From NCBI GenBank assembly GCA_002163135.1, contig MAAN01000011.1, positions 124,001 through 188,000 on the forward strand: a stretch of DNA of 64,000 nt, in the 5' to 3' direction. The stretch is from Alphaproteobacteria bacterium 46_93_T64 (GTDB taxonomy: Bacteria; Pseudomonadota; Alphaproteobacteria; Sneathiellales; Sneathiellaceae). Of the stretch, positions 40,011 to 53,299 are shown one piece after another. The first letter of the stretch is position 1; each line of letters starts with the position of its first letter. The translations under genes and the position numbers were made by a program. The notes beneath the pieces were generated by a model. That model did not search any database. It worked only from the letters and a program-made list of their open reading frames with translations, and was not told where the DNA came from.

Positions 40011-40128
40011 TTATTCTAATTCCCCAATTAGTAGATTTATGTGAACCAAATAGTAACCAATGAGATCTATATTACCTATAACATGCAACGATAATAATAA
40101 CGTTTTACGAGTGTGTTCCGGGGGAATT

Positions 40129-42420
40129 ATGTTTAGAACGATACTAGGGTTTTTGAAAAATAAGTTTGAGTCTAAGAAGAAGCAAAAAGATATAGCCGGC
40201 TCTAACTCTAAAATAAAAATAGGAATTCGGGCACGTCTTTACGCAGCATTTGGTGTTATTGCACTGATGACTTTGGCATCCGGTACTGTCGGTTGGGCTC
40301 TTTTCACTAGCCTTGGAAGTACCCTTGAAAACACGACAAAGTCTTCAATAAAATCTGTATCCTTCGCACAAACGTTATCCGAAAATGCGAAGTCAGTTGT
40401 AGCCGTGGCACCTAGCCTAATTAAGGCGTCTTCTCTTGAAGAAATTAAAGCTGAAAGTCAGATCGCACAACAGTATCTTATTACGCTGGATGACAGTGTT
40501 GTTGATTTGTACAATCTCGATGTAGATACCGGGGTAATTGAACAGATTCAAGAAGAGGTTTCCGATCTGGAAACGAACTTTCTTGATCTGAATAGTCAAA
40601 TGAAGAAGCGAGTTCAGCTGACGAAGAACTCTGAAGCAATTGCTGCACAGGTTGCCGATTACCATAAAAAAATTGGAGCTGTTTTACAACCATTTGTAGA
40701 CAAACAACAACAGATTGTAAGTGTGGAAGCGGCTGGTCTTGAAATCGAAACGGATCTTACCTCCATTCAAGAGGGAATAGTTCGATTAATTGACGAGGAA
40801 GTCAGTAATTTAAGTCGCGCTATGGGACTACAAAGTAATCTTAATATGAGTGCGGGTTTGTTGCATCGAATTGCAACTGAGACCGATCAGGAAAGACTTG
40901 AGAAACTGAAGGAGGATTTTTCTGTTTTTGGGACGCGAATGCGCATGTCATTAATGCTTCCTGATTTTGAAGGCAAGGAACAGCTAGTTAAAGATGTTTT
41001 GGCGATGCTGGAGCTTGCGACAGCCGAGCAAGGTCTGATCGTTCTGAGAGAACAATATATCAAGACCATGTCTAAAGCGGACACAACTATAGAAAATGTC
41101 AGTAACACTGCCGCTGACTTATCGAAGACTGTTGAAAAAATTGTGGAAGAGATTACTGCTGGAACGGACAAAACGATTAATGCAGCAGCGCATAATATTG
41201 AGGTAGGTAAGACCCAACTTGGTGTTATTTCAGTGGCCAGTGTTGTTATGGCTCTTCTGATTGCATGGTTATATGTTGGAAGAAATTTGATGCGCCGTCT
41301 AAATCTGTTGGTCAGTGACATGGGGTTCATTTCTGCCGGAAATCTGGAAACCGAAGTAACTGTAGCTGGGAATGACGAAATCACGAAAATGGGGAACGCC
41401 CTAATCGGTTTTAGAGACAATGCGAAGGACGCTGTAAAACTTCGAGAACAAGCTGAAATCGATAGACTCTCACGTGAAGAAGAGAGCGTTCGTGCTGAAA
41501 AAGAAACCTCTGAAGCTGAAAAACGAGCTCTTGAGGAACAAAAGCGGGTTGAACGCGAGGCCGATGAGCGGAAGAAAGCTGAAATGGCGCAGTTGGCAAA
41601 TGATTTTGAGGGAAGCGTTAAGCATTTGGTTGAGAGTTTCGCGGTCGCGACAACCCAAATGAATGTCAGTTCTGAAAGTATGTCAGAAGCTGCAAATGAG
41701 ACAAGTAGTCGCTCTAACGCTGTCTCAAACGCGTCAGATCTTGCAAGTAGCAGCGTGAATTCTGTGGCCTCAGCTACAGAAGAGTTGACATCCTCAATCA
41801 ATGAAATAAGTCGCCAAGTTGGACAAGCAGCAACAATTGCTAGTGAGGCTGTTCAAGAGGCAGAAAGAACCAATGATATGGTGACAAGTCTCAACGATGC
41901 TGCTGCAAAAATTGGTGATGTGGTAGGTTTGATTAACGATATAGCGGCGCAAACTAATTTGCTTGCACTTAATGCAACCATCGAAGCCGCTAGAGCCGGT
42001 GACGCTGGTAAAGGCTTTGCTGTCGTTGCGAGCGAAGTTAAAAATCTGGCAGCTCAAACAGCCCGTGCGACTGAAGAGATTTCTGAACAGATTAAAGCTG
42101 TGCAGGAAGAAACTAACAATGCTGTTGGCGCCATTGGCGGAATTTCCAGTACCATTGCTCAAATTAGCGAAATCGCGACGGGTATTGCCTCTGCCGTAGA
42201 AGAGCAAGGGGCGGCAACGGGTGAGATTAGTCGAAGCGTGCAGCAAGCGGCTCAAAGCACTCAAGAGGTCTCACAGAACATTGTTTCTGTTAATGAGGCC
42301 GCGATTTCGACTGGGAATTCAGCAACGGAAGTTCGTGAGGTTTCCAGCGGTTTGTCAAATGAAGTTGAAAATCTGGATCGGGAAGTTCAAAGCTTTTTGG
42401 AACGGGTTCGCGCAAGCTAG
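40129..42420 (+). CDS. Methyl-accepting chemotaxis protein
   Basis: A 763-residue chemoreceptor from the ATG at 40129, which has GGGGGA just upstream (the frame opens earlier at 40060). Order: a short basic N-terminus, TM1 near residues 35-55, a long helical sensor domain, TM2 near 365-385, HAMP ([21 protein letters not shown]), a Glu/Lys-rich coiled coil, and the signalling domain. Its hairpin tip reads [20 protein letters not shown], followed by [20 protein letters not shown]. The ligand is unknown. No Che genes are adjacent. Confidence 0.93.
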
Positions 42421-42467: not shown

Positions 42468-42713
42468 TTAGGTGTTGTTATCTGATTTTCTCAAATAGGC
42501 AGCTATTCCGGAAACTGAAAACAGCAAAAGCGTATCTTCAGTGTCGATCATAGATCCTAATTTTTCTTCTATGTGCAGAATAAGGCGCATGTGATTAAGG
42601 CTATCCCATTTATCGATTGTTTCGATCGTGTCTTCTGCGGATATCTCTTCTGAAGCGTACCCCAAAATGCCAGATATATGCTCGATAGCTTGCGTAACAT
42701 AAAGATCTTCCAT
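42468..42713 (-). CDS. Free-standing acyl/peptidyl carrier protein
   Basis: An 81-residue carrier protein. The phosphopantetheine-attachment Ser is in DKWDSLNHMRLILHIEE (DSL motif at helix 2), and the four-helix pattern is complete to VSGIAAYLRK. It would carry an acyl or aminoacyl group as a thioester. The ATG at 42713 is chosen because AAGGTG lies upstream and it begins just after the stop of the GNAT gene. The frame is open to 42737. Last gene of the ATP-grasp/adenylation/GNAT/carrier cluster. Confidence 0.88.
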   Translation of the reverse strand: MEDLYVTQAIEHISGILGYASEEISAEDTIETIDKWDSLNHMRLILHIEEKLGSMIDTEDTLLLFSVSGIAAYLRKSDNNT

Positions 42714-42717
42714 TAAC

Positions 42718-43314
42718 TCACACCTTTTCTTGAGCATCGCTCAACGCTCTCTCAGCCCTTTTCTGCATAATCCAGTCTTCCTTAAAGAGTGCAAACTCCA
42801 CGACATCCTCAAGGTTGCCTTCGTGGTTCCGAATTTGCTGTTTTCGAATGCCCTCTTTTTGAAAGTGTTGCCTTGAGTAATTGAATAGAGCTGGAAGGTT
42901 TCTTGACCGAACATTACCGCAAATCTTATTCATTCTCAGAGCTGAAAATAGGAAAAGAACAATTCGCTCACGAACTTCAATGACGACGTTTGCTCCCCAA
43001 TATTCCTTATCCCCAATCATAATGCTTGTGTAAGCTAACTCATTTTTGGGCTCGAGATATATTCGGAAAATGCCAATAGGTTTATTGTTCAGTCGATCGT
43101 ATATCAACAATGCTATGCGGGTACTATTGTTGTAACGAGAGAAAAATTTGGATAATTGAGTATTATCCAAATCCATGGGATCGTTCATATATTTCATGGT
43201 TTCCCTATCAGAAAACCAACTGACCATTTCACCTGGTATGTGGCCTGGCACAATTGATCGCAGGACGTATTTTTCTGTTTCCAGTGTTAAAGGGGCTCCA
43301 AATTTCCATCTCAT
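42718..43314 (-). CDS. GNAT-family N-acetyltransferase (RimJ/RimL-like)
   Basis: A 198-residue acetyltransferase starting with YVLRSIVPGHIPGEMVSWFSD, then the strand-helix region NKPIGIFRIYLEPKNELAYTSIMIG and the acetyl-CoA segment YWGANVVIEVRERIVLFLFS, with NVRSRNLPALFNYSRQH. This form resembles acetyltransferases that act on amino sugars or amino acids. Its ATG overlaps the adenylation gene stop (ATGA), so it is translationally coupled. It may modify the product or the carrier-bound intermediate. Confidence 0.85.
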   Translation of the reverse strand: MRWKFGAPLTLETEKYVLRSIVPGHIPGEMVSWFSDRETMKYMNDPMDLDNTQLSKFFSRYNNSTRIALLIYDRLNNKPIGIFRIYLEPKNELAYTSIMIGDKEYWGANVVIEVRERIVLFLFSALRMNKICGNVRSRNLPALFNYSRQHFQKEGIRKQQIRNHEGNLEDVVEFALFKEDWIMQKRAERALSDAQEKV

Positions 43315-44735
43315 TTGAATTCACCAATCTCTAAGCATTTTTTACGGACATTATCTCGGTTTATCTTACCCCTGTCTGTTTTGGGAATTTCATCAAGAAT
43401 AAACCAGCTTTCCGGGATGGCTTCCCGGCGAATGAGCCCCTGCAACCAATTATGTAAAATCTCCAAATTAGGCTCCACTCCGTCTTTCAGGACACAAGCC
43501 ACGGCCACTCGTTCGCCGCTGATAGCATCGGGAAGGCCAAATACGCAGACTTCTTGAATATCCTCATGCCGTTCCAGTAAGAGATCAATTTCTTCAGGTA
43601 ATATTTTCATTCCGGCGCGATTAATTTCCGATTTTTGGCGCCCAGTTATGCGAATGTCTCCATCTTCTTCAATTGTTCCAATATCGCCGGTATGAAACCA
43701 TCCGTCTTTCAGCACGGCATCGGTCAGCTCCGGTTGTTTGAAGTAACCGTTCATGAGTGAAGGTGTTTGTACAAGGAGTTCACCAGAACCGGTCAGAGAT
43801 CTTTCTCCTGTTTCTGGATCTAGCACCATGGCAGATCCACCCCAAACCTCACCGATGCGCCCATCCGCCTTTCGGCCTTCAGCGAGAGAGGTCCCGCCGA
43901 TCCAGTTAGCGGTTTCAGTGATGCCATACATATTGAAAACTTGATCGGTACCACACCAATTTGCAATTGCTTCCCAGAGCTCAGTTGATAACGGTGCAGA
44001 GCCGACATGCACGCGCTTTAGGCTCCCGCTCACGGGTGGTTTTGATAGTCTTGTTGCCATTTTCCAAAAAGAAGGAACTGAACTTAAAAACCCGATTTCA
44101 TTGGCATCTATAATCTCTCCAAGCTTGGCAAGGCCCATTGGGGATTTGTCATCAAGCAAAATGACATCCCGGCCACTGAGAAGGGGCGTTAATAGGTTTC
44201 CGATCAACCCGTGTCCAAAATGAGTTGGAAGAGGGCATAGGGTTTTAATCGACTTCGGTAATTTCATGTACGCTTGGTTTAAAGTAAAGCGTGCAAGCAA
44301 GGATCTGAAGCTATGTTCAACACCTTTTGGGTTTCCGGTGGTTCCTGAGGTGAACAGATAAAGTGCAGGATGATCCAAGGACAGTGATTGCCCATTTTTC
44401 TTCGAGCGATTTTTATCTATGAACAAAGGAGCTTGTAAATGTTGCTCCAAAACAGCTACGGGCTCTACAAATTTAATCAGGGTTTGTTTTTCATGATCGG
44501 TTGCAGATGAATTTATGCAAGCGGCCGCAGCACCAGTACTCCATACTGCTAGTAAATCGGCAACGAAGCCAGCAGTACCACCGTGGCAAATAAGGATGCG
44601 ATCATTTGGACCAATATTACCGGTAAGCTGCGCTACTCGCGCATTGATCATCTCACGAAGCTGTGGGCCGTCGATCCAAGAGAGATCATTTGTTGTGGCC
44701 AGATTTCCTAGTATCGGGAATGTATTGAAGATCAT
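43311..44735 (-). CDS. AMP-forming adenylation enzyme (acyl/aminoacyl ligase)
   Basis: A 474-residue stand-alone adenylating enzyme. The core motifs are intact: [17 protein letters not shown] (A3), FNMYGITETANWIGG (A5), GWFHTGDIG (A7), ITGRQKSEINRAGMKI (A8) and the catalytic lysine in KTDRGKINRDNV (A10). With a carrier protein in the same cluster, it probably loads an acid onto that carrier rather than onto CoA. Its substrate cannot be read from sequence by eye. It is shorter than typical fatty acyl-CoA synthetases. Confidence 0.88.
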   Translation of the reverse strand: MIFNTFPILGNLATTNDLSWIDGPQLREMINARVAQLTGNIGPNDRILICHGGTAGFVADLLAVWSTGAAAACINSSATDHEKQTLIKFVEPVAVLEQHLQAPLFIDKNRSKKNGQSLSLDHPALYLFTSGTTGNPKGVEHSFRSLLARFTLNQAYMKLPKSIKTLCPLPTHFGHGLIGNLLTPLLSGRDVILLDDKSPMGLAKLGEIIDANEIGFLSSVPSFWKMATRLSKPPVSGSLKRVHVGSAPLSTELWEAIANWCGTDQVFNMYGITETANWIGGTSLAEGRKADGRIGEVWGGSAMVLDPETGERSLTGSGELLVQTPSLMNGYFKQPELTDAVLKDGWFHTGDIGTIEEDGDIRITGRQKSEINRAGMKILPEEIDLLLERHEDIQEVCVFGLPDAISGERVAVACVLKDGVEPNLEILHNWLQGLIRREAIPESWFILDEIPKTDRGKINRDNVRKKCLEIGEFK

Positions 44736-44802
44736 TTAGGGGCTCATAATTTATTATAGTCGTATTTGATCACATGTTAAATATTAGAATAAAGTAGCTT
44801 TG

Positions 44803-45981
44803 TTATTTTTGCTTGTCATATTTGTATATTAATTGGACCAGTGCAGTATGCAAAGCGGGATCATCCCATGATATATCTAAAGGGACGGATTTCAAATACG
44901 GACTGTTGCGGTCGCGCATTATTTCATCGGGGAATAATGCAATTACTTTTTCATTTTGCGTGTGTTGAACTATCTGTCTAGTCGTCTCATTGCCTTGTAA
45001 CTCGGCAAAAAATAGAGAGACCAAGTTATTTCCGAGCATCGATGAACACGGAACAGTATGGGTTGATCGCAAATTGACTTCGATGATGTTGGGGAGCTCT
45101 TGCTGTGATGTTTCAAAGGCATCAAGACCACCAAATCCACTAAATTGTAGTTTCTGAACTAGAGCTTTAAGCGGCTTTTCTAATTGTGGGCGATACAGAT
45201 TTTTGATCACTGAACTCGGACCGTTTGTAAAGAGAGTCTCGAGCGGTTTGACAACCGTGTACCCAAGCAATTGACCTTTCCATGCAGCGAAACTAATCGT
45301 TACTTCGCTTCCCTCTGCTAAAGATTGGATAATTGCTGGATTGTCTTCTGAAAGTGAATATCCGGAATTTCTAATTTTTTCAATTGTTTGTCGTACGTCC
45401 GTGCCCTCTGACACCATGTACACGCCAGTTCCGCCCGCTGCAAAATTTAGTTTGACGAAAAAAGGCCGAGGATAGGCGGCCATGCTACTTTCAAGATGTA
45501 TCAAATTGTGTGCTGTCACATATTCAGGCGTATTGAAGCCAGCGTCTTCTGCCATTTGAACAGAAACGTCTCGCCTATAAGCATTTGTATCCGGTGCCAA
45601 ACTGGTTTCGAGCAGATTAAGGAGACGTCGCCTTTCATCAGAAAGGGAGCTTTCCTCAGCACGTAAGATTTTACGAAAATGCAACAATCCACGCATTAGC
45701 GCTTCATCATTTGTTATGAGATAGTCAGGATCACAATGTTTGCAGGCAAATGTTAATCCATTGACCATATTTGCAAAAGATATGTCTTTGGGAGATTTTG
45801 GGTATCTGTATTTTTGTTTGAAACTTCCACCCTTTAGAAGCAACCGTTCTCTATAACCAAGTCCATAATTTTCAGTGCCAAGTTTTTTAAACTGAGCAGG
45901 TAATCGGCTCAAGCTGACATTGGTGTACATATCCGTGAAAAGTAGTTTGACCAAATCTATACCCGCCCCGCGGCCTCCCAA
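44803..45981 (-). CDS. ATP-grasp domain ligase, start uncertain
   Basis: A 392-residue ATP-grasp protein related to carboxylate-amine ligases. The ATP-grasp core is seen in RPFFVKLNFAAGGTGVYMVS, AIIQSLAEGSEVTISFAAW and IIEVNLRSTHTVPCSSMLG (metal-binding Glu/Asn). The pre-ATP-grasp strand seems to begin upstream of any good start: ISGALGGRGAGIDLVKLL resembles the usual ITGA...ALxLxRLL, but the frame is closed by a TGA at 46006-46008. The TTG at 45981 lies inside that motif, and there is no ATG until residue 18. A hairpin sits over this point. The 5' end is therefore truncated or uses a rare start. Confidence 0.75.
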   Translation of the reverse strand: MGGRGAGIDLVKLLFTDMYTNVSLSRLPAQFKKLGTENYGLGYRERLLLKGGSFKQKYRYPKSPKDISFANMVNGLTFACKHCDPDYLITNDEALMRGLLHFRKILRAEESSLSDERRRLLNLLETSLAPDTNAYRRDVSVQMAEDAGFNTPEYVTAHNLIHLESSMAAYPRPFFVKLNFAAGGTGVYMVSEGTDVRQTIEKIRNSGYSLSEDNPAIIQSLAEGSEVTISFAAWKGQLLGYTVVKPLETLFTNGPSSVIKNLYRPQLEKPLKALVQKLQFSGFGGLDAFETSQQELPNIIEVNLRSTHTVPCSSMLGNNLVSLFFAELQGNETTRQIVQHTQNEKVIALFPDEIMRDRNSPYLKSVPLDISWDDPALHTALVQLIYKYDKQK

Positions 45982-46083: not shown

Positions 46084-48324
46084 TTATTTTGTCGTTGCTC
46101 GGAAAATACCATCCCAGTTTAGGGGCGGCGGTGTATCCCTAAAATTTTCCACGCGCATTCTATATAAGTCACTCAATGAGCCGAGGGCGGGGGATGTGGT
46201 TTTCAATTGTTGGGCGAGTTCTATGGCCAGATTCCAATTTTTATTTCGATAATTTAGGATTAGCTCGTTTACCAAATTTTTTGTTTGAATAAAGTCCTTA
46301 GTCCTCGCCAAATCGGTATCTCCGAGAAGTGCGTATATTTTTACGGCAGCCTTTCGGCCCTTTACGGCGATTAAATCCAATTCAATAAGTGCGTATTCGC
46401 TTATCCCGGTAGCTGTATCTTCTCCCACAATGATGTCAACACCATAGGTTTTAGTTTGGCCTTCAAGGCGGGAGGCGAGGTTTACTGGATCGCCGAGGAC
46501 AGAATAGTCAAATCGTTGTTCTGAGCCCAGATTTCCGACAATACAGGTTCCAGTATTTAGACCAATTCCGATTTTGAGCGCTCTAAAATGGCGATTATTT
46601 TCTTCGGCTTGCTTTTTTAGATCTTCATTGAGTTGGGACAACCGCCCCATCATACCAAGGGCACTATCCACCGCTTTTTGTTCATGATGTTCGGTCGGGA
46701 GGGGTGCATTCCAAAAAGCCATGATGGAATCTCCCATATATTTATCAATTGTCCCACTATGAATAAGGATTTCGTCTGTCATCGGGGTTAAAAAGCTGTT
46801 GATTAAGTGGGTTAAACCCCTCGGGTCATCGCGAAAAGTTTCAGATATTCCTGTGAAGTCCCGGACGTCGCAGAAAAGAAAGGTCATTTCTTTCTCTTCA
46901 CCGCCCAGAACAAGGCTTTCTGGTGATGCTGATAGGCGCTTTACTAGGTCAGGGGACAGATAATGAGAAAAAGCATTGCGAATACGAGTTCGTTCTTTTT
47001 CAGTTAGCAGGTAGTTGAAGAATACAAGAGTGATGTAGAGGAGTAGGGAAACGAACAATGTGTAACTTACATCAATGAGCAGCGAGTATTCACTAAACAA
47101 GTACAGGGAGGAACTGACTGCAATACTGGATATGAGAATTAACAAACCCATAGTGCTGCGTGCACCGACAAAGGGAACAAGTAGGATGAGGATCGCGCCT
47201 GTAAAAATAGTACCTGCCCATTCTAAAACGGCGAGATAGTTTGGCCTAAATAAGTAGCTTTGTGTAAGGATGTTTTCCACAAGCTGCATATGCATCTCAA
47301 CGCCTGGTAAGGAGGCTTGCAAAGGGGACGAGCGGAGATCTTTCAAACCTGTTGCTGATGTACCGACAAATAATATTTTTCCTTTTATTAGATTAGGGTC
47401 GACAGTTCCCGTGACAACATCTACCGCAGATAAGTATTGATCTGGATCGAACGGTGCATATTTGATCCAGATACGTCCATCCCGATCTGTTGGGACAAAT
47501 GATCCCGCTATCTTAAAACCAGTAATCCCTTTTTTTGTAGCTTGTGCAATAACATTGCGGCCTGTGGCTACACGAAGCATATCAAGACCAAGTGTTGGAA
47601 CAACTTTGCCTTTTACAACATTTGCAAGCGGTACTCTTCTGATAATACCATCAAAATCCTGGTCAAGACTGATCATGCCGCTCCCGGACGCGGCGTTGCC
47701 CAAAATCGGAATGTTTCCAATAAACCCTGGGAACGCTTTCAAAAAAGGGATCGGGTTTTCTCCAAGTGACGCAATTGTAGCTATATTCTGGATGCCGAAA
47801 TTATTGACATCCTCTCGTGAAGTGTTGACCGCAACACCAAGTACCACCCGGCTGTTCTTAAGCTGATTAGCAAATACCGTATCGAATGATGGGAGGGCTG
47901 ATAGTTCGTTTAGAGTGCGTTGCGACAAGGACGCGATGCTATCGCCCATTTTATTTGGGGATAATCGGTCTTCTTCCGCAAACACCATATCAAAGCCGAT
48001 AACAACAGCGCCCATGTTCGTGGCATTTTGTACAAGAGCGGCAAGGTAGTTTCGGGGCCACGGCCACTGACCTAATTGTAAAAGGCTCTTTTCATCGATG
48101 TCTAATATTGCGACCGGTCGCTGTTTTGGTGCTACTCTCGGTTGCCATTGTTGATAATTGTCGAATACACGATTTCGAAAATTTGAAAGAAAATCGGGAT
48201 CTGCTATCTGAATGTAAAGGGCAGGGAAAAATAGCGCCAGGGCACACAGACGGCCGATCCCCAGTAGTGCAGGAAATTTAAGTAGGTTGAAACCTTTGAT
48301 GAATTTACCAAAAAATATAGTCAT
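46084..48324 (-). CDS. CHASE2-domain adenylate/guanylate cyclase
   Basis: A 746-residue membrane cyclase. After a first hydrophobic helix (about residues 20-40), a large extracytoplasmic CHASE2 domain (about 60-345, with AILDIDEKSLLQLGQWPWPR and GFDMVFAEEDR) is followed by three membrane spans (about 360-445). The class III cyclase domain (about 470-650) follows. Metal-binding Asp residues lie in FLFCDVRDFTG and KYMGDSIMAFW, and the Lys in TIDKYMGD favours ATP over GTP. A signal sensed outside would raise cAMP. It is divergent from the FecR/RTX protein and lies upstream of the ATP-grasp cluster. Confidence 0.92.
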   Translation of the reverse strand: MTIFFGKFIKGFNLLKFPALLGIGRLCALALFFPALYIQIADPDFLSNFRNRVFDNYQQWQPRVAPKQRPVAILDIDEKSLLQLGQWPWPRNYLAALVQNATNMGAVVIGFDMVFAEEDRLSPNKMGDSIASLSQRTLNELSALPSFDTVFANQLKNSRVVLGVAVNTSREDVNNFGIQNIATIASLGENPIPFLKAFPGFIGNIPILGNAASGSGMISLDQDFDGIIRRVPLANVVKGKVVPTLGLDMLRVATGRNVIAQATKKGITGFKIAGSFVPTDRDGRIWIKYAPFDPDQYLSAVDVVTGTVDPNLIKGKILFVGTSATGLKDLRSSPLQASLPGVEMHMQLVENILTQSYLFRPNYLAVLEWAGTIFTGAILILLVPFVGARSTMGLLILISSIAVSSSLYLFSEYSLLIDVSYTLFVSLLLYITLVFFNYLLTEKERTRIRNAFSHYLSPDLVKRLSASPESLVLGGEEKEMTFLFCDVRDFTGISETFRDDPRGLTHLINSFLTPMTDEILIHSGTIDKYMGDSIMAFWNAPLPTEHHEQKAVDSALGMMGRLSQLNEDLKKQAEENNRHFRALKIGIGLNTGTCIVGNLGSEQRFDYSVLGDPVNLASRLEGQTKTYGVDIIVGEDTATGISEYALIELDLIAVKGRKAAVKIYALLGDTDLARTKDFIQTKNLVNELILNYRNKNWNLAIELAQQLKTTSPALGSLSDLYRMRVENFRDTPPPLNWDGIFRATTK

Positions 48325-48640: not shown

Positions 48641-51600
48641 ATGAATACTCCTACAGGGATGGGTCATGCAGATATTGAGGATGTCGGTAAGCTTGCGGAA
48701 TACTCTGCAGCTGGAAAATCTGCTGTTGAGCTAGGTACTGAATTAAAACCCCTTGTTGCAATTTTTGCGCGTGACGGTGTTGATCTAACTTTAAGTGATC
48801 AGAATGGTGATTTCATTGTCGTGAAAGACTATTTTGCATCATTTCCATCACCGGATCTTGTCACAAGCGGCGGTGCAAAACTGTCCTCTGAAGTTGTTAG
48901 CAAATTAGCTGGGCCAGGTCCACAGGCTCAAAATTCTTCCACTCAAACGGATGTAAGCCCCATAGGTGAAATCTCGGAACTCGACGGAGTTGTGAAGATT
49001 AATCATCTTGATGGAACCTCTGAAGACGCCGTTGAGGGATCATTGGTCTTTAAAGGTGATGTGCTTGAAACTGCAGAAGACGGAAATTTTTCTGTTACTT
49101 TTATCGATGACACCAAATTTTCAATGGGGCCGAGCGGTCGTGCCATACTGGATGATCTAGTCTATGATTCAGGTGATACCAGTGGGAACGGTATGGGTGT
49201 TTCCCTACTTCAAGGCGTGTTCAGTTTCGTTAGTGGAAAAATAGCAAAAGATAACCCGGAAAGCGTCGATATTAAGACGCCGGTTGGTACTATTGGTATC
49301 AGGGGGACTAGCTGGACCGGTAAAATTGCGCAGCTAGGAGAAGAGTCTCTTTTTACCTTGTTTACAGGTGCGATCATTGTTGCCAATGAAGCTGGGTCGC
49401 AACTGCTTACGGTGAGTAATCAATCCGTGATTGTTACGAGCTCAAAAATAGCGCCTGGAAAACCGTTTGTTTTGACGGAAGAACAGTTAATCGATGCGTA
49501 TGGTAAAGTCTTGTCGCTAATAAACCCGGAATGGCTGGAAGATGAAGAATTTGATCCAAGTAAAATAAATCCGGAAGCAGGCCCAAGTGGCGGCAGCGGT
49601 GGTGGAGGGGCCAGTTTTGTCGCTGTAGATCTGGGGAATATTGACGAAAACCTGGGACTAGCAGAAATACTTGGACTCTCTGATTTGTTGGATAAAACCG
49701 ATTTGACGGAAGAGGAATTGAGGGTACTTCTTGATCCTCTTTATACCACGACTGAACCAACTATTGACGTTCGTGTGGAAACTGTTGTTGATCCGGTTAC
49801 AAGTACTGTAAGTGCCTTTAGCATTGAAGTTGTTTTAGATGCTCCGTCAGACGTTCCGGTAACTATTTTTTATGAAATAGCCCCAGGAACAGCCTCTGGT
49901 CTAGATATGGGGCTACCCGGTGACGTCGACTTTATAGATGAAGGCGGCGGAATAATTACTGTACCTGCAGGTTCTATTTCGGGAAGTTTCGCGATAACGC
50001 TCGTAGACGACGATGTTATTGAAGATCCTGAGTTTTTCCTTATACGTCTAACCGATGCTGTGAACGCTGTAATTGATCCACTTGGTGGCATGGCGCTGAT
50101 AGTTATTGAAGATGACGACATCGGTGTTGTTTCTGTAAAGCCAGTAATTGAGGATGCTCCCTCAATTATGGCGTTTAGTGCAGCCCCTTTTGCACTTCTC
50201 ACCGAGCTTGATCCTCTCAATGAAACCCAAGTTGAAGAAACCGATGGAGCCGTGCAATTCAGACTGATTTTGGATAAAGCGGTTGCCCCAGGTGTCGAAA
50301 TCCGCGTCGATTATACTGTAACCGGTGATGCGGTTGATCGCACCGATTTTCCAGAAGGCGGGATTCTATCAGCTTTTTTCTTAGGGGGCGAGACGGGATT
50401 ACCCGCGGGATCTGAAATTATAATTGAAGTCAATATTCTAGATGATGATCAATATCAAGGAGAAGAAAGCTTCTCAATTAACTTGGTTGGCGGAACATTG
50501 AATGCGGTGCCTGATGAAATAGATGGCTCGTTACTCGTTACGATAGTTGATGATGAAACGCCAGTGGTCGCAGGTCAGTCAGCAACAACATTTGTTTCCG
50601 AGGCAGAGATTGAAGACACAGCAAATGATTTGTCTTTGGGGTTAAGCGGAGGCAGCGGTGTTCTTTCCAGTTTGCTCTTCTCACCCACCCAAACGGATTT
50701 TGATGACTTAGGACTTACCTCTAACGAGATTCCTGTGGAGCTGATTGGGCTTGGAACTGCAGTATTACAAGGGAAGGCTGCCGATCAGATAATTTTCACA
50801 GTAACCTTAAACGAAAACGGTTCTTACAATCTGAGTCTGAGTGGCCCACTGGATCATTTAGTTGGTGAAGGTGTGACAGATACTTCAGCACTTTTCCCGC
50901 TTGCGTTTGAGGCCGTTGACGCCAATGGATCATCGGTTTCAAGTCAGATCTATCTTGTAATCGGCGATGATACTCCACAGGCGAACTCTGAAAATGACAG
51001 CGCTATCGAAGGCGGCGTGGCAACCGGTAATTTACTGACGGGTGTTGAAGTCGCCGGGGATAACAATATCACTGATGGTGTAGCTGATGAGATGGGCGCT
51101 GATGGAGGAGGCATTGTAAGTGTCTGGCTTCAGTCAGAACCACCTGTTGAAACTATGTTTGGAGACAATGAGAGCATAACTGTTGCGGGGACACATGGCA
51201 CGCTCACTGTTCATAGCAATGGCGATTACAGTTATCTAGCAAACGGAGGCCTCAATAACAGCGCTGCCTTGAGTGATGTTTTTGGCTATCGAATTGTGGA
51301 TGGGGATGGGGATGAAAGTACAGCATCGCTCACAATAAATCTATTTGATGCGCTTACGCCTGTTATTGGCGAAATCGCACGTGTTTTTGTAGATGAAGAC
51401 GACTTGTTTGATGGCAGCGATGACACCAAGGAAAGTCTGGTTGCGGGCGCAGAAATTCCCATATCTTTTAGCGGTGATGCTCCTGGTGATGTAACGCTCA
51501 TTCTTGACGACTTACCGTCTATCCTATCTCGTGGTGATGCGGTGGAATATAGTCTCGAAATTCTGGAGGATGGTGTTACTCAACGGGTTAGCGCCATTGC

Positions 51601-53299
51601 AGTTCCTGAAGAAGGGGCGCCCAGAACGGTATTCATATTGGATTTTGCGCCAAACGGGAACGGCGAAAATTATTCTTATTCTGCAACCTTGATGGATGTG
51701 ATTGACCATGGGGATGCCGGGGAAGATGTCAAAGATTTTGTATTTGGAATTGTTTCTGAAGATCAAGACGGATCGACGTTTGACAGCAGCTTTACCTTCT
51801 CAGTTATAGATGATGTGCCTACGGCGTCGAACGATACAGTTGATATTGTAACGGTCCCTATCCCTAATTATAATCTGCTGTTCGTTATTGATAGTTCTGG
51901 ATCAATGGCTGCTCTCGTTGCACAAGAAGGCGGTGGTACAAAAAGCCGCATTGAAATTATGCGCGAAGCTGTATCCAAGGTACTTGCGGGCTATGACGAA
52001 ACAGGGGTGGGGCTTAATATCTCCTTTATCGATTTCGATTCCCAGTCACAATTAGTTTTCACTGGGACTTCTGTATCCGAGGCACAGGCCTTCATAAATG
52101 ACGAAGATAATTTTCAACCTTCTGGTCTAACGAATTACGCTGATGCTTTATCAGACACTGGAAATGGAGCCCAGGGGGTTCTATCCGGCCAGCTGGCTGA
52201 TCCGTCGTTAGATGGTTACTCAAATATCATCTATTTTATCTCTGATGGAGAGCCCTATCCAGCAGCAAATGGAGTTCCTTTAGGTGCTGGTATGGACAAC
52301 CCTTGGCAGTTGTTTGCTGATGGGAACGATATTGAGGTCGTCTCCATCGGTATCGGGGATAGTCTGAATATAGATGAGCTTAATCTGGTGGAAAATGCAG
52401 GTGAAACTGCAATGGTAGTTTCCGATGCAAATGATCTGGAGGCTGTTCTTGTTGGCACTATTCCAGAAACAAAAGAAGGGAATGTCGTGAGCAGCGGCAT
52501 TGTCGATAAATTAGGTGCTGATGGGGCCTCTATTACACTAATTTCTTTTGTGACGGGCAGCGCGAATTTAGCAGTACTTTATGCGTTCCAAGGGGCCGAT
52601 GTTATTTCCTTGGGCGAAGATCAGTTCTCTGTGGATTTTGCGATCTCTCAAGGGGGTGATGTACTTACCTTCGATCTTGAAAGCGGTAGCTCTTTTAGTA
52701 TTTCCAAAGATGGTGAGTATACTTTCGAGGCCGTAGCGGGCGTTTCTGCAGGAACAGAGCATGTCTTTAACTACACACTGACAGATGGTGATGGTGATAT
52801 TAGCACAGCCAATTTGACGTTCAGCTTTGTCTCTGAAGGAGATGAACTTGGGATCGTCATAGATAGTAGCTCAGAGGGCGGTGAGTTTCTCGGTGATGAT
52901 CTAAGCAATATTTTAATTGGTACCTCTGGAAACGATCTTATTATTGGCGGCGATGGTGCGGATACAATAACTGGTTCAGGTGGGGATGATACCCTTTCAG
53001 GCGGCGACGGCGCAGATCTGTTCGTCATTACAGAAGATGATGAGGGCACAATTACCATAACGGATTTCGATACCTCTGAAGATGTCATCGATTTGGATGA
53101 TTTATTTGATGCCCTGTCGATCGCGACAGAAGATCGTATCGAAGGCGATAGCTGGAGCCTTGATATTGTCAGCGGGATTGCGACATTGAATATAGCCGGA
53201 GCCAATTCACCAATCATATCGTTTAGCGACGTATTTAATCCCACTGCACAAGAGTTGGATGAAATTGCTGCACAAATTTCAGTTGGAGATGAGTCGTAG
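48641..53299 (+). CDS. Giant FecR/Calx-beta/vWA/RTX secreted surface protein
   Basis: A 1552-residue, strongly acidic protein with no N-terminal signal peptide. Order: a FecR domain (about 110-260, with TPVGTIGIRGTSWTG), a Gly/Ser linker (near 315), two Calx-beta repeats (about 373-493 and 531-637), a VCBS-like region with GTHGTLTVHSNGDYSYLANG (about 785-905), a von Willebrand A domain from LLFVIDSSGSMAALV (about 1077-1270) with an intact DxSxS MIDAS motif, and a second VCBS-like segment. RTX calcium repeats (about 1420-1465, NDLIIGGDGADTITGSGGDD) precede a C-terminal type I secretion region. Probably exported by a type I system and used in adhesion; no type I genes are in the window. A GGAGG site precedes the ATG. 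Confidence 0.9.
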   Translation: MNTPTGMGHADIEDVGKLAEYSAAGKSAVELGTELKPLVAIFARDGVDLTLSDQNGDFIVVKDYFASFPSPDLVTSGGAKLSSEVVSKLAGPGPQAQNSSTQTDVSPIGEISELDGVVKINHLDGTSEDAVEGSLVFKGDVLETAEDGNFSVTFIDDTKFSMGPSGRAILDDLVYDSGDTSGNGMGVSLLQGVFSFVSGKIAKDNPESVDIKTPVGTIGIRGTSWTGKIAQLGEESLFTLFTGAIIVANEAGSQLLTVSNQSVIVTSSKIAPGKPFVLTEEQLIDAYGKVLSLINPEWLEDEEFDPSKINPEAGPSGGSGGGGASFVAVDLGNIDENLGLAEILGLSDLLDKTDLTEEELRVLLDPLYTTTEPTIDVRVETVVDPVTSTVSAFSIEVVLDAPSDVPVTIFYEIAPGTASGLDMGLPGDVDFIDEGGGIITVPAGSISGSFAITLVDDDVIEDPEFFLIRLTDAVNAVIDPLGGMALIVIEDDDIGVVSVKPVIEDAPSIMAFSAAPFALLTELDPLNETQVEETDGAVQFRLILDKAVAPGVEIRVDYTVTGDAVDRTDFPEGGILSAFFLGGETGLPAGSEIIIEVNILDDDQYQGEESFSINLVGGTLNAVPDEIDGSLLVTIVDDETPVVAGQSATTFVSEAEIEDTANDLSLGLSGGSGVLSSLLFSPTQTDFDDLGLTSNEIPVELIGLGTAVLQGKAADQIIFTVTLNENGSYNLSLSGPLDHLVGEGVTDTSALFPLAFEAVDANGSSVSSQIYLVIGDDTPQANSENDSAIEGGVATGNLLTGVEVAGDNNITDGVADEMGADGGGIVSVWLQSEPPVETMFGDNESITVAGTHGTLTVHSNGDYSYLANGGLNNSAALSDVFGYRIVDGDGDESTASLTINLFDALTPVIGEIARVFVDEDDLFDGSDDTKESLVAGAEIPISFSGDAPGDVTLILDDLPSILSRGDAVEYSLEILEDGVTQRVSAIAVPEEGAPRTVFILDFAPNGNGENYSYSATLMDVIDHGDAGEDVKDFVFGIVSEDQDGSTFDSSFTFSVIDDVPTASNDTVDIVTVPIPNYNLLFVIDSSGSMAALVAQEGGGTKSRIEIMREAVSKVLAGYDETGVGLNISFIDFDSQSQLVFTGTSVSEAQAFINDEDNFQPSGLTNYADALSDTGNGAQGVLSGQLADPSLDGYSNIIYFISDGEPYPAANGVPLGAGMDNPWQLFADGNDIEVVSIGIGDSLNIDELNLVENAGETAMVVSDANDLEAVLVGTIPETKEGNVVSSGIVDKLGADGASITLISFVTGSANLAVLYAFQGADVISLGEDQFSVDFAISQGGDVLTFDLESGSSFSISKDGEYTFEAVAGVSAGTEHVFNYTLTDGDGDISTANLTFSFVSEGDELGIVIDSSSEGGEFLGDDLSNILIGTSGNDLIIGGDGADTITGSGGDDTLSGGDGADLFVITEDDEGTITITDFDTSEDVIDLDDLFDALSIATEDRIEGDSWSLDIVSGIATLNIAGANSPIISFSDVFNPTAQELDEIAAQISVGDES

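Follow-up and report, generated by a model that had tools for sequence, protein, structure and literature searches.

What might a free carrier protein do beside an adenylating ligase and an acyltransferase, with no assembly line at hand? The question is raised by four closely spaced genes in a 64,000-nucleotide stretch of the genome of Alphaproteobacteria bacterium 46_93_T64 (Sneathiellaceae; contig MAAN01000011.1, positions 124,001 to 188,000), referred to here as the window. They encode an ATP-grasp ligase, a stand-alone ANL adenylate-forming ligase (ANL), a GNAT N-acyltransferase and a free acyl carrier protein (ACP). An earlier note, made from the sequence alone, had described this minus-strand set and placed it outside standard nonribosomal peptide synthetase (NRPS) and polyketide synthase (PKS) systems. 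Profile searches against Pfam and NCBIfam, which supply the gene identities, agree with all four assignments, and elongation genes are indeed absent alongside: Pfam found no condensation or ketosynthase domain in the cassette or in the direct neighbours scanned. We consider it fairly likely that the locus holds a three-gene N-acylation module, to which an ATP-grasp ligase has been added in this genus, and that its product is a small acylated amide, assembled with no NRPS or PKS enzymes.

Conservation of the cassette and its core

The cluster is real and not a chance arrangement: congeners keep its gene order at one shared site, and other members of the class have it in triad form. Among 24 genomes of the genus, several of them incomplete so that absences are partly uncertain, eight have matches to the family GNAT (G000, G004, G005, G006, G007, G009, G012 and G015). 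All eight carry the four genes in the same order and at the same site, beside the same gene (40060–42420 in the window), which we read from its sequence as encoding a chemoreceptor. The ATP-grasp frame is split in G009, probably by a sequencing error; at locus L040, a split in this frame is put down to probable error because the nearby genes for a 609-aa ligase and for the cyclase are likewise split. A further genome (G023) has the ATP-grasp gene and a truncated ANL gene at a contig edge, and in G011 the ATP-grasp gene stands alone (L036, 8769–9992), directly beside the chemoreceptor gene. In seven non-carrier congeners (L097–L103), other genes follow the transporter block and the chemoreceptor gene is also missing from the site; the cassette and this gene share a distribution, from which we draw no functional conclusion. 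Homologues scattered without a conserved neighbourhood, which the earlier note held would count against a cluster, are not what we see.

Beyond the genus the family is rare: ANL orthologues (E ≤ 1e-75) occur in 16 of 386 genomes sampled evenly across the class, and matches at E ≤ 1e-90 were found in three genomes of a 397-genome phylum sample, all from the same class. Carriage on plasmids was not detected (72,556 plasmids searched by tblastn at E 1e-50). The ANL loci that we read beyond the genus number 15 (L041, L043, L044, L045, L064–L073 and L093), two Rhizobiaceae contigs included. The full triad of ANL, GNAT and ACP genes is present at 12 of them (ordered ANL, ACP, GNAT in L064), an ACP gene accompanies the ANL gene at 14, and an ATP-grasp gene is found at none. 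Pairwise distances over 15 loci are correlated for ANL and GNAT (r = 0.95), ANL and ACP (0.86) and GNAT and ACP (0.88; Mantel, each P = 0.0002), which shows co-inheritance and not many independent events. The core unit is three genes, not four.

The ATP-grasp ligase is a fast-evolving, genus-level addition to this core. Mean identity within the genus is 38% for this enzyme against 66% for the ANL, its distances track those of the ANL (r = 0.91), and distant matches have no triad genes nearby. It scores 27.0 bits against ATP-grasp_3 (cut-off 23.2), its strongest NCBIfam match is carbamoyl-phosphate synthase (CPSase), and K177, E301, N303 and R305 (E-x-N-x-R) are invariant in nine homologues, which covers the ATP-binding Lys and metal-binding E-x-N expected of ATP-grasp carboxylate-amine ligases; from these residues we judge the enzyme to be catalytically intact. 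An AlphaFold2 model (predicted local distance difference test (pLDDT) 89) matches PDB structures of PurK, PurD, biotin carboxylase and L-amino acid ligases with moderate TM-scores, a predicted fold that would indicate the chemistry (formation of an acyl phosphate that a nucleophile then attacks) and not the substrate. Our preferred reading is of a second, diversifying ligase, which would either build the acceptor or extend the product.

Proposed acid activation, carrier loading and acyl transfer

The earlier note saw in these genes the parts to activate an acid, load it onto a carrier and form an amide, and the enzyme families and their conserved order are compatible with that proposal. The ANL is above the Pfam cut-offs for both AMP-binding (PF00501, 164 bits) and AMP-binding_C (PF13193, 42.9 bits), and its catalytic A10 lysine (Lys457) is invariant in 21 members, as expected of the ANL superfamily. 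We mapped ten acyl-pocket positions from the known GrsA positions, which we take to be those lining the acyl pocket in adenylation enzymes, and assigned the equivalents ourselves. The window enzyme reads HGGSVVMNWK and the family H-G-G-S-[VLI]-[VI]-M-N-W-K, in which six positions are invariant, a seventh reaches 0.95 and three (299, 301 and 322) vary, at conservation values of 0.67, 0.57 and 0.81, respectively. Mean conservation is 0.90 in the pocket against 0.61 over all columns, a level matched by 0.015% of random sets. The ANL of L093, which was outside the original alignment, matches the pocket code exactly, and five other ANLs from the same loci have unrelated codes. Because the pocket is near-uniform among ANLs only 39–75% identical to the window enzyme in the family alignment, one acid is probably common to the family.

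NRPS-type adenylation enzymes bind the alpha-amino group of their substrate through Asp235. The equivalent residue is His in all ANL members, with no Asp in any, and this argues against an alpha-amino acid as substrate. The closest solved sequences are the oxalate-CoA ligases 5ie0 (266 bits) and 6qjz (251 bits), which suggests a small polar acid. By our own alignment, the pocket resembles these characterized ligases only in part: His and Gly at the equivalents of 235 and 236 are common to both, while the window ANL has Asn and Trp for His and Leu at 330 and 331, and Val for Ser at 301. With these three differences, at places that we would think important, oxalate itself is unsupported as the acid despite being the substrate of the nearest solved enzyme. 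Fatty acyl-AMP ligases (FAALs) have an insertion between motifs A5 and A7; none was found here, the A5-to-A7 spacing being 79–82 residues with no insertion relative to oxalate-CoA ligase. A specific insertion in the N-terminal domain is the mark of FAALs (PMC8460268). At two loci within polysaccharide clusters, an ICL/PEP-mutase-family lyase is encoded beside the ANL: in L071 (9737–10885) an acyl carrier domain is fused to it, and in L073 (8928–9999) an ACP gene adjoins that of a lyase with a KKCGH motif, to which petal death protein is closest among solved structures. Such a lyase could supply the acid, which we offer as a lead only.

The carrier, taken alone, falls just under the Pfam threshold for PP-binding (20.4 bits; cut-off 20.8). 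We nonetheless hold it very probable that this is a true carrier, because W44-D45-S46 is invariant in 17 homologues, with the phosphopantetheine serine placed within WDSL, as in the DSL/DSI motif of acyl carrier proteins. The GNAT is assigned to Acetyltransf_3 (39.6 bits; cut-off 25.4), with a sub-threshold match to Acetyltransf_8. Its AlphaFold2 model (pLDDT 94) matches RimJ/SpeG-type enzymes in Foldseek at E of about 1e-13, with RimJ/RimL, SpeG and PseH structures among the hits, and Tyr146, invariant in the family, is the probable catalytic Tyr expected of a GNAT. In CoA-using GNATs, a Q/R-x-x-G-x-G/A loop holds the CoA pyrophosphate. The corresponding loop of the window enzyme (YWGANVV) is degenerate, and all 21 family members have Trp in first and Val in last place (Pro in L044 and L045); the two PseH-like GNATs that were aligned with them, one set of loci being L071 and L073, have an Arg-Gly loop. 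Degeneracy of the loop in every member, together with the usual linkage to the ACP, favours an ACP-bound acyl group as the donor. The earlier suggestion that the GNAT acetylates something is hard to reconcile with this loop and with a gene that usually travels with those for the ANL and ACP; transfer of a carrier-bound acyl group, rather than acetyl, is more likely. Mean identity across loci is 37% for the GNAT and 53% for the ANL, which is consistent with one donor and different acceptors, short proteins often diverging faster anyway.

In the scheme that we favour, the ANL would adenylate one specific small carboxylic acid, not an alpha-amino acid, with ATP to give an acyl-AMP, and the acyl group would then pass to the phosphopantetheine arm of the free ACP. 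The GNAT would move it from acyl-ACP to a primary amine, yielding an amide, and the ATP-grasp ligase would use ATP to form a further bond, in all likelihood another amide, so as to build the amine acceptor or extend the product. Several observations weigh against this scheme. The triad is not always complete: L071 and L073 have ANL and ACP genes without a family GNAT beside them, L065 has the ANL gene alone, and a family GNAT gene in L042 (7895–9601) has no ANL gene nearby, in a genome (G025) with a full triad at another locus (L041). Related genomes contribute to the distance correlations. The conservation of the pocket residues is inflated by their location within or close to conserved core motifs, and the control set comprises five paralogues only. 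An ANL lacking the FAAL insertion could act as a ligase for CoA, degeneracy of the pyrophosphate loop is no proof of ACP use, and the persistence of the ATP-grasp gene without the triad in L036 means that it may have a separate role.

Possible acceptors and competing explanations

The triad might instead serve a surface glycan or flagellin, where its GNAT, working as PseH does, would place an unusual N-acyl group on a nonulosonic acid or some other amino sugar. In L069 it lies within a pseudaminic acid cluster in which PseB, PseC, PseG and PseI all score above cut-off. PseG there has its own fused GNAT domain, so the GNAT of the triad is an extra one, and the product of this locus is probably an unusual nonulosonic acid. 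The polysaccharide clusters that hold the ANL and ACP genes of L071 and L073 also encode PseB-like and PseC-like enzymes, and the window GNAT has a weak match to PseH as well as PseH structures among its fold matches. By gene content, L069 can also be likened to the group II flagellin glycosylation islands of Aeromonas, where an ACP and an AMP-dependent synthetase occur in a pseudaminic acid context (PMC7874193); those islands additionally carry 3-oxoacyl-ACP reductase, luxC and luxE, and the window has no Pse genes. Within the window's genus, however, PseI is above cut-off in none of the 24 genomes, and two weak matches occur only in triad-free ones. Nor are sugar genes directly adjacent to the window cassette or to most other triad loci. 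A search with PseH was uninformative, since it returned sub-threshold GNAT matches in all 24 genomes. The surface glycan proposed by the earlier note thus suits the relative at L069, but no triad-carrying genome of the genus has a PseI match, and a nonulosonic-acid role there is not supported; we regard sugar-nucleotide N-acylation as unlikely. L069 (721–14494) also encodes a class III aminotransferase-like fusion, a formyltransferase and a PIG-L/BshB-like deacetylase.

A second explanation, which we hold to be decidedly improbable, is that the ANL makes an acyl-CoA, the GNAT uses acyl-CoA or acetyl-CoA and the role of the ACP lies elsewhere. The missing FAAL insertion and the CoA ligases that are the closest solved relatives of the ANL would suit it; an ACP that co-diverges with both partners and accompanies the ANL at nearly all loci outside the genus would not, and neither would the degenerate CoA loop of the GNAT.

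In butirosin biosynthesis, the ATP-grasp enzyme BtrJ itself loads the ACP BtrI. By analogy, the ATP-grasp ligase of the window might load an amino acid onto the ACP, with the ANL supplying an acid to be joined to it. ATP-grasp and ACP genes lie within one putative operon here, much as those for BtrJ and BtrI lie in one cluster. CPSase-like and BtrJ-like ATP-grasps form one clade (PMC4431377), and CPSase is the top NCBIfam match of the window enzyme. Unlike butirosin, the window has a separate ANL, and the triad lacks an ATP-grasp gene at every locus read outside the genus, where the ACP must have another loader; this arrangement seems to us very unlikely.

In L044 (7360–13096), L045 and L093 (5813–11169), the triad lies beside lasso-type B2 protease, PqqD-like, HPr-kinase-like and NTP_transf_5 genes, with short open reading frames (ORFs) bearing a YxxP leader-like motif; B2 is above cut-off in L044. 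No Asn-synthetase-like cyclase was recognized among the ORFs looked at in these loci, which possibly represent a lasso-like class of peptides in which acylation takes the place of cyclization. A pattern scan for YxxP near all triads gave no hits, not even where such ORFs are visible by eye, its spacing being one residue too long, and so says nothing about absence. That the triad acylates a ribosomally made peptide in the window's genus as well is the least probable alternative and hardly to be expected, since the lasso B2 protein is absent from all 24 genomes, leaving a lasso or ribosomally synthesized and post-translationally modified peptide role there not supported, no precursor-like ORF was recognized near the window cassette and the lasso context occurs in two lineages only.

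With neither PseI above cut-off nor lasso B2 in the genus, the acceptor there is probably something other than a nonulosonic acid or a lasso peptide. The remaining triad loci mostly stand alone. Returning to the N-acylation module, we can suggest tentatively, and with more doubt than confidence, that a single acyl group, selected by the HGGS..MNWK pocket and held on a dedicated ACP, is attached by sister GNATs to different amines across alphaproteobacteria: a sugar in nonulosonic acid clusters, a ribosomal peptide where the gene set is lasso-like and a small molecule here. The triad would then be a transferable tailoring unit that pairs one donor with many acceptors. If true, a compact three-gene cassette allows bacteria to link one acyl group to widely differing molecules with no assembly line involved. 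Given the near-uniform ANL pocket, an acid identified for one enzyme would carry over to all relatives, including those in pseudaminic-acid and lasso-like clusters.

Precedents and local layout

The closest worked example of such logic, by analogy, is that of mycobactin, in which the fatty acyl-AMP ligase MbtM, the ACP MbtL and the N-acylating GNAT MbtK serve a siderophore NRPS. The window has the same combination of adenylating ligase, free ACP and GNAT, the last with its sub-threshold Acetyltransf_8 match; it differs in an ANL without the FAAL insertion, in a GNAT of RimJ/SpeG/PseH type by fold search and in having no recognized siderophore genes alongside. An acyl ligase and ACP supplying the donor of a GNAT have also been predicted from genomes, in operons of methionyl-tRNA synthetase (MetRS) paralogues (PMC2922099). 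These operons, likened by gene content, contain an acyl-CoA ligase, an ACP and a GNAT, and some also have ATP-grasp ligases (PMC2922099); they centre on the MetRS paralogue, a cupin and a lysine N6-monooxygenase, none of which was seen at the window. The acyl ligase/ACP/GNAT kind is already known; that the present cassette is a distinct form of it is probable in outline. As the earlier note had it, no described pathway matches the set: no characterized pathway with exactly these genes was found in the literature searched, which is weak evidence as few subscription papers were covered.

Features of the cassette and its downstream edge, in window coordinates
Feature	Position	Strand	Length	Assignment and remarks
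ATP-grasp ligase	44803..45981	-	up to 392 aa	Pfam ATP-grasp_3; first gene of putative operon
Stand-alone ANL adenylate-forming ligase	43311..44735	-	474 aa	Pfam AMP-binding + AMP-binding_C
GNAT N-acyltransferase	42718..43314	-	198 aa	Pfam Acetyltransf_3
Free acyl carrier protein (ACP)	ORF 42468..42737; likely 42468..42713	-	89 aa; likely 81 aa	Pfam PP-binding, NCBIfam ACP subfamily
Terminator-like stem-loop	42437..42458	listed + strand only		Pattern scan; between convergent chemoreceptor gene and cassette end

The last three genes had been described as overlapping or nearly touching. The GNAT and ANL genes do overlap by 4 bp, and 67 bp separate the ANL and ATP-grasp genes; an overlap of the ACP and GNAT genes is probably absent, because homologues point to the ATG at 42713, 4 bp past the GNAT stop, as the first codon of the ACP. 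For the ATP-grasp ligase, a TTG start at 45954 (383 aa) is more likely than the TTG at 45981. The cassette has a G+C content of about 43–46%, the same as the window, and is flanked by the convergent chemoreceptor gene (+) and a CHASE2-cyclase gene (46084–48324, -). Terminator-like stem-loops in the region number 5 against 3.2 expected from the pattern scan, a weak excess. Elsewhere in the genome, PP-binding stretches occur in a 1431-aa open frame (C11). Adjoining the cyclase gene, an arrangement kept in some congeners, is a gene (48641–53299) for a 1552-aa protein in which FecR-like, repeat, von Willebrand-like and RTX-like features can be made out by eye.

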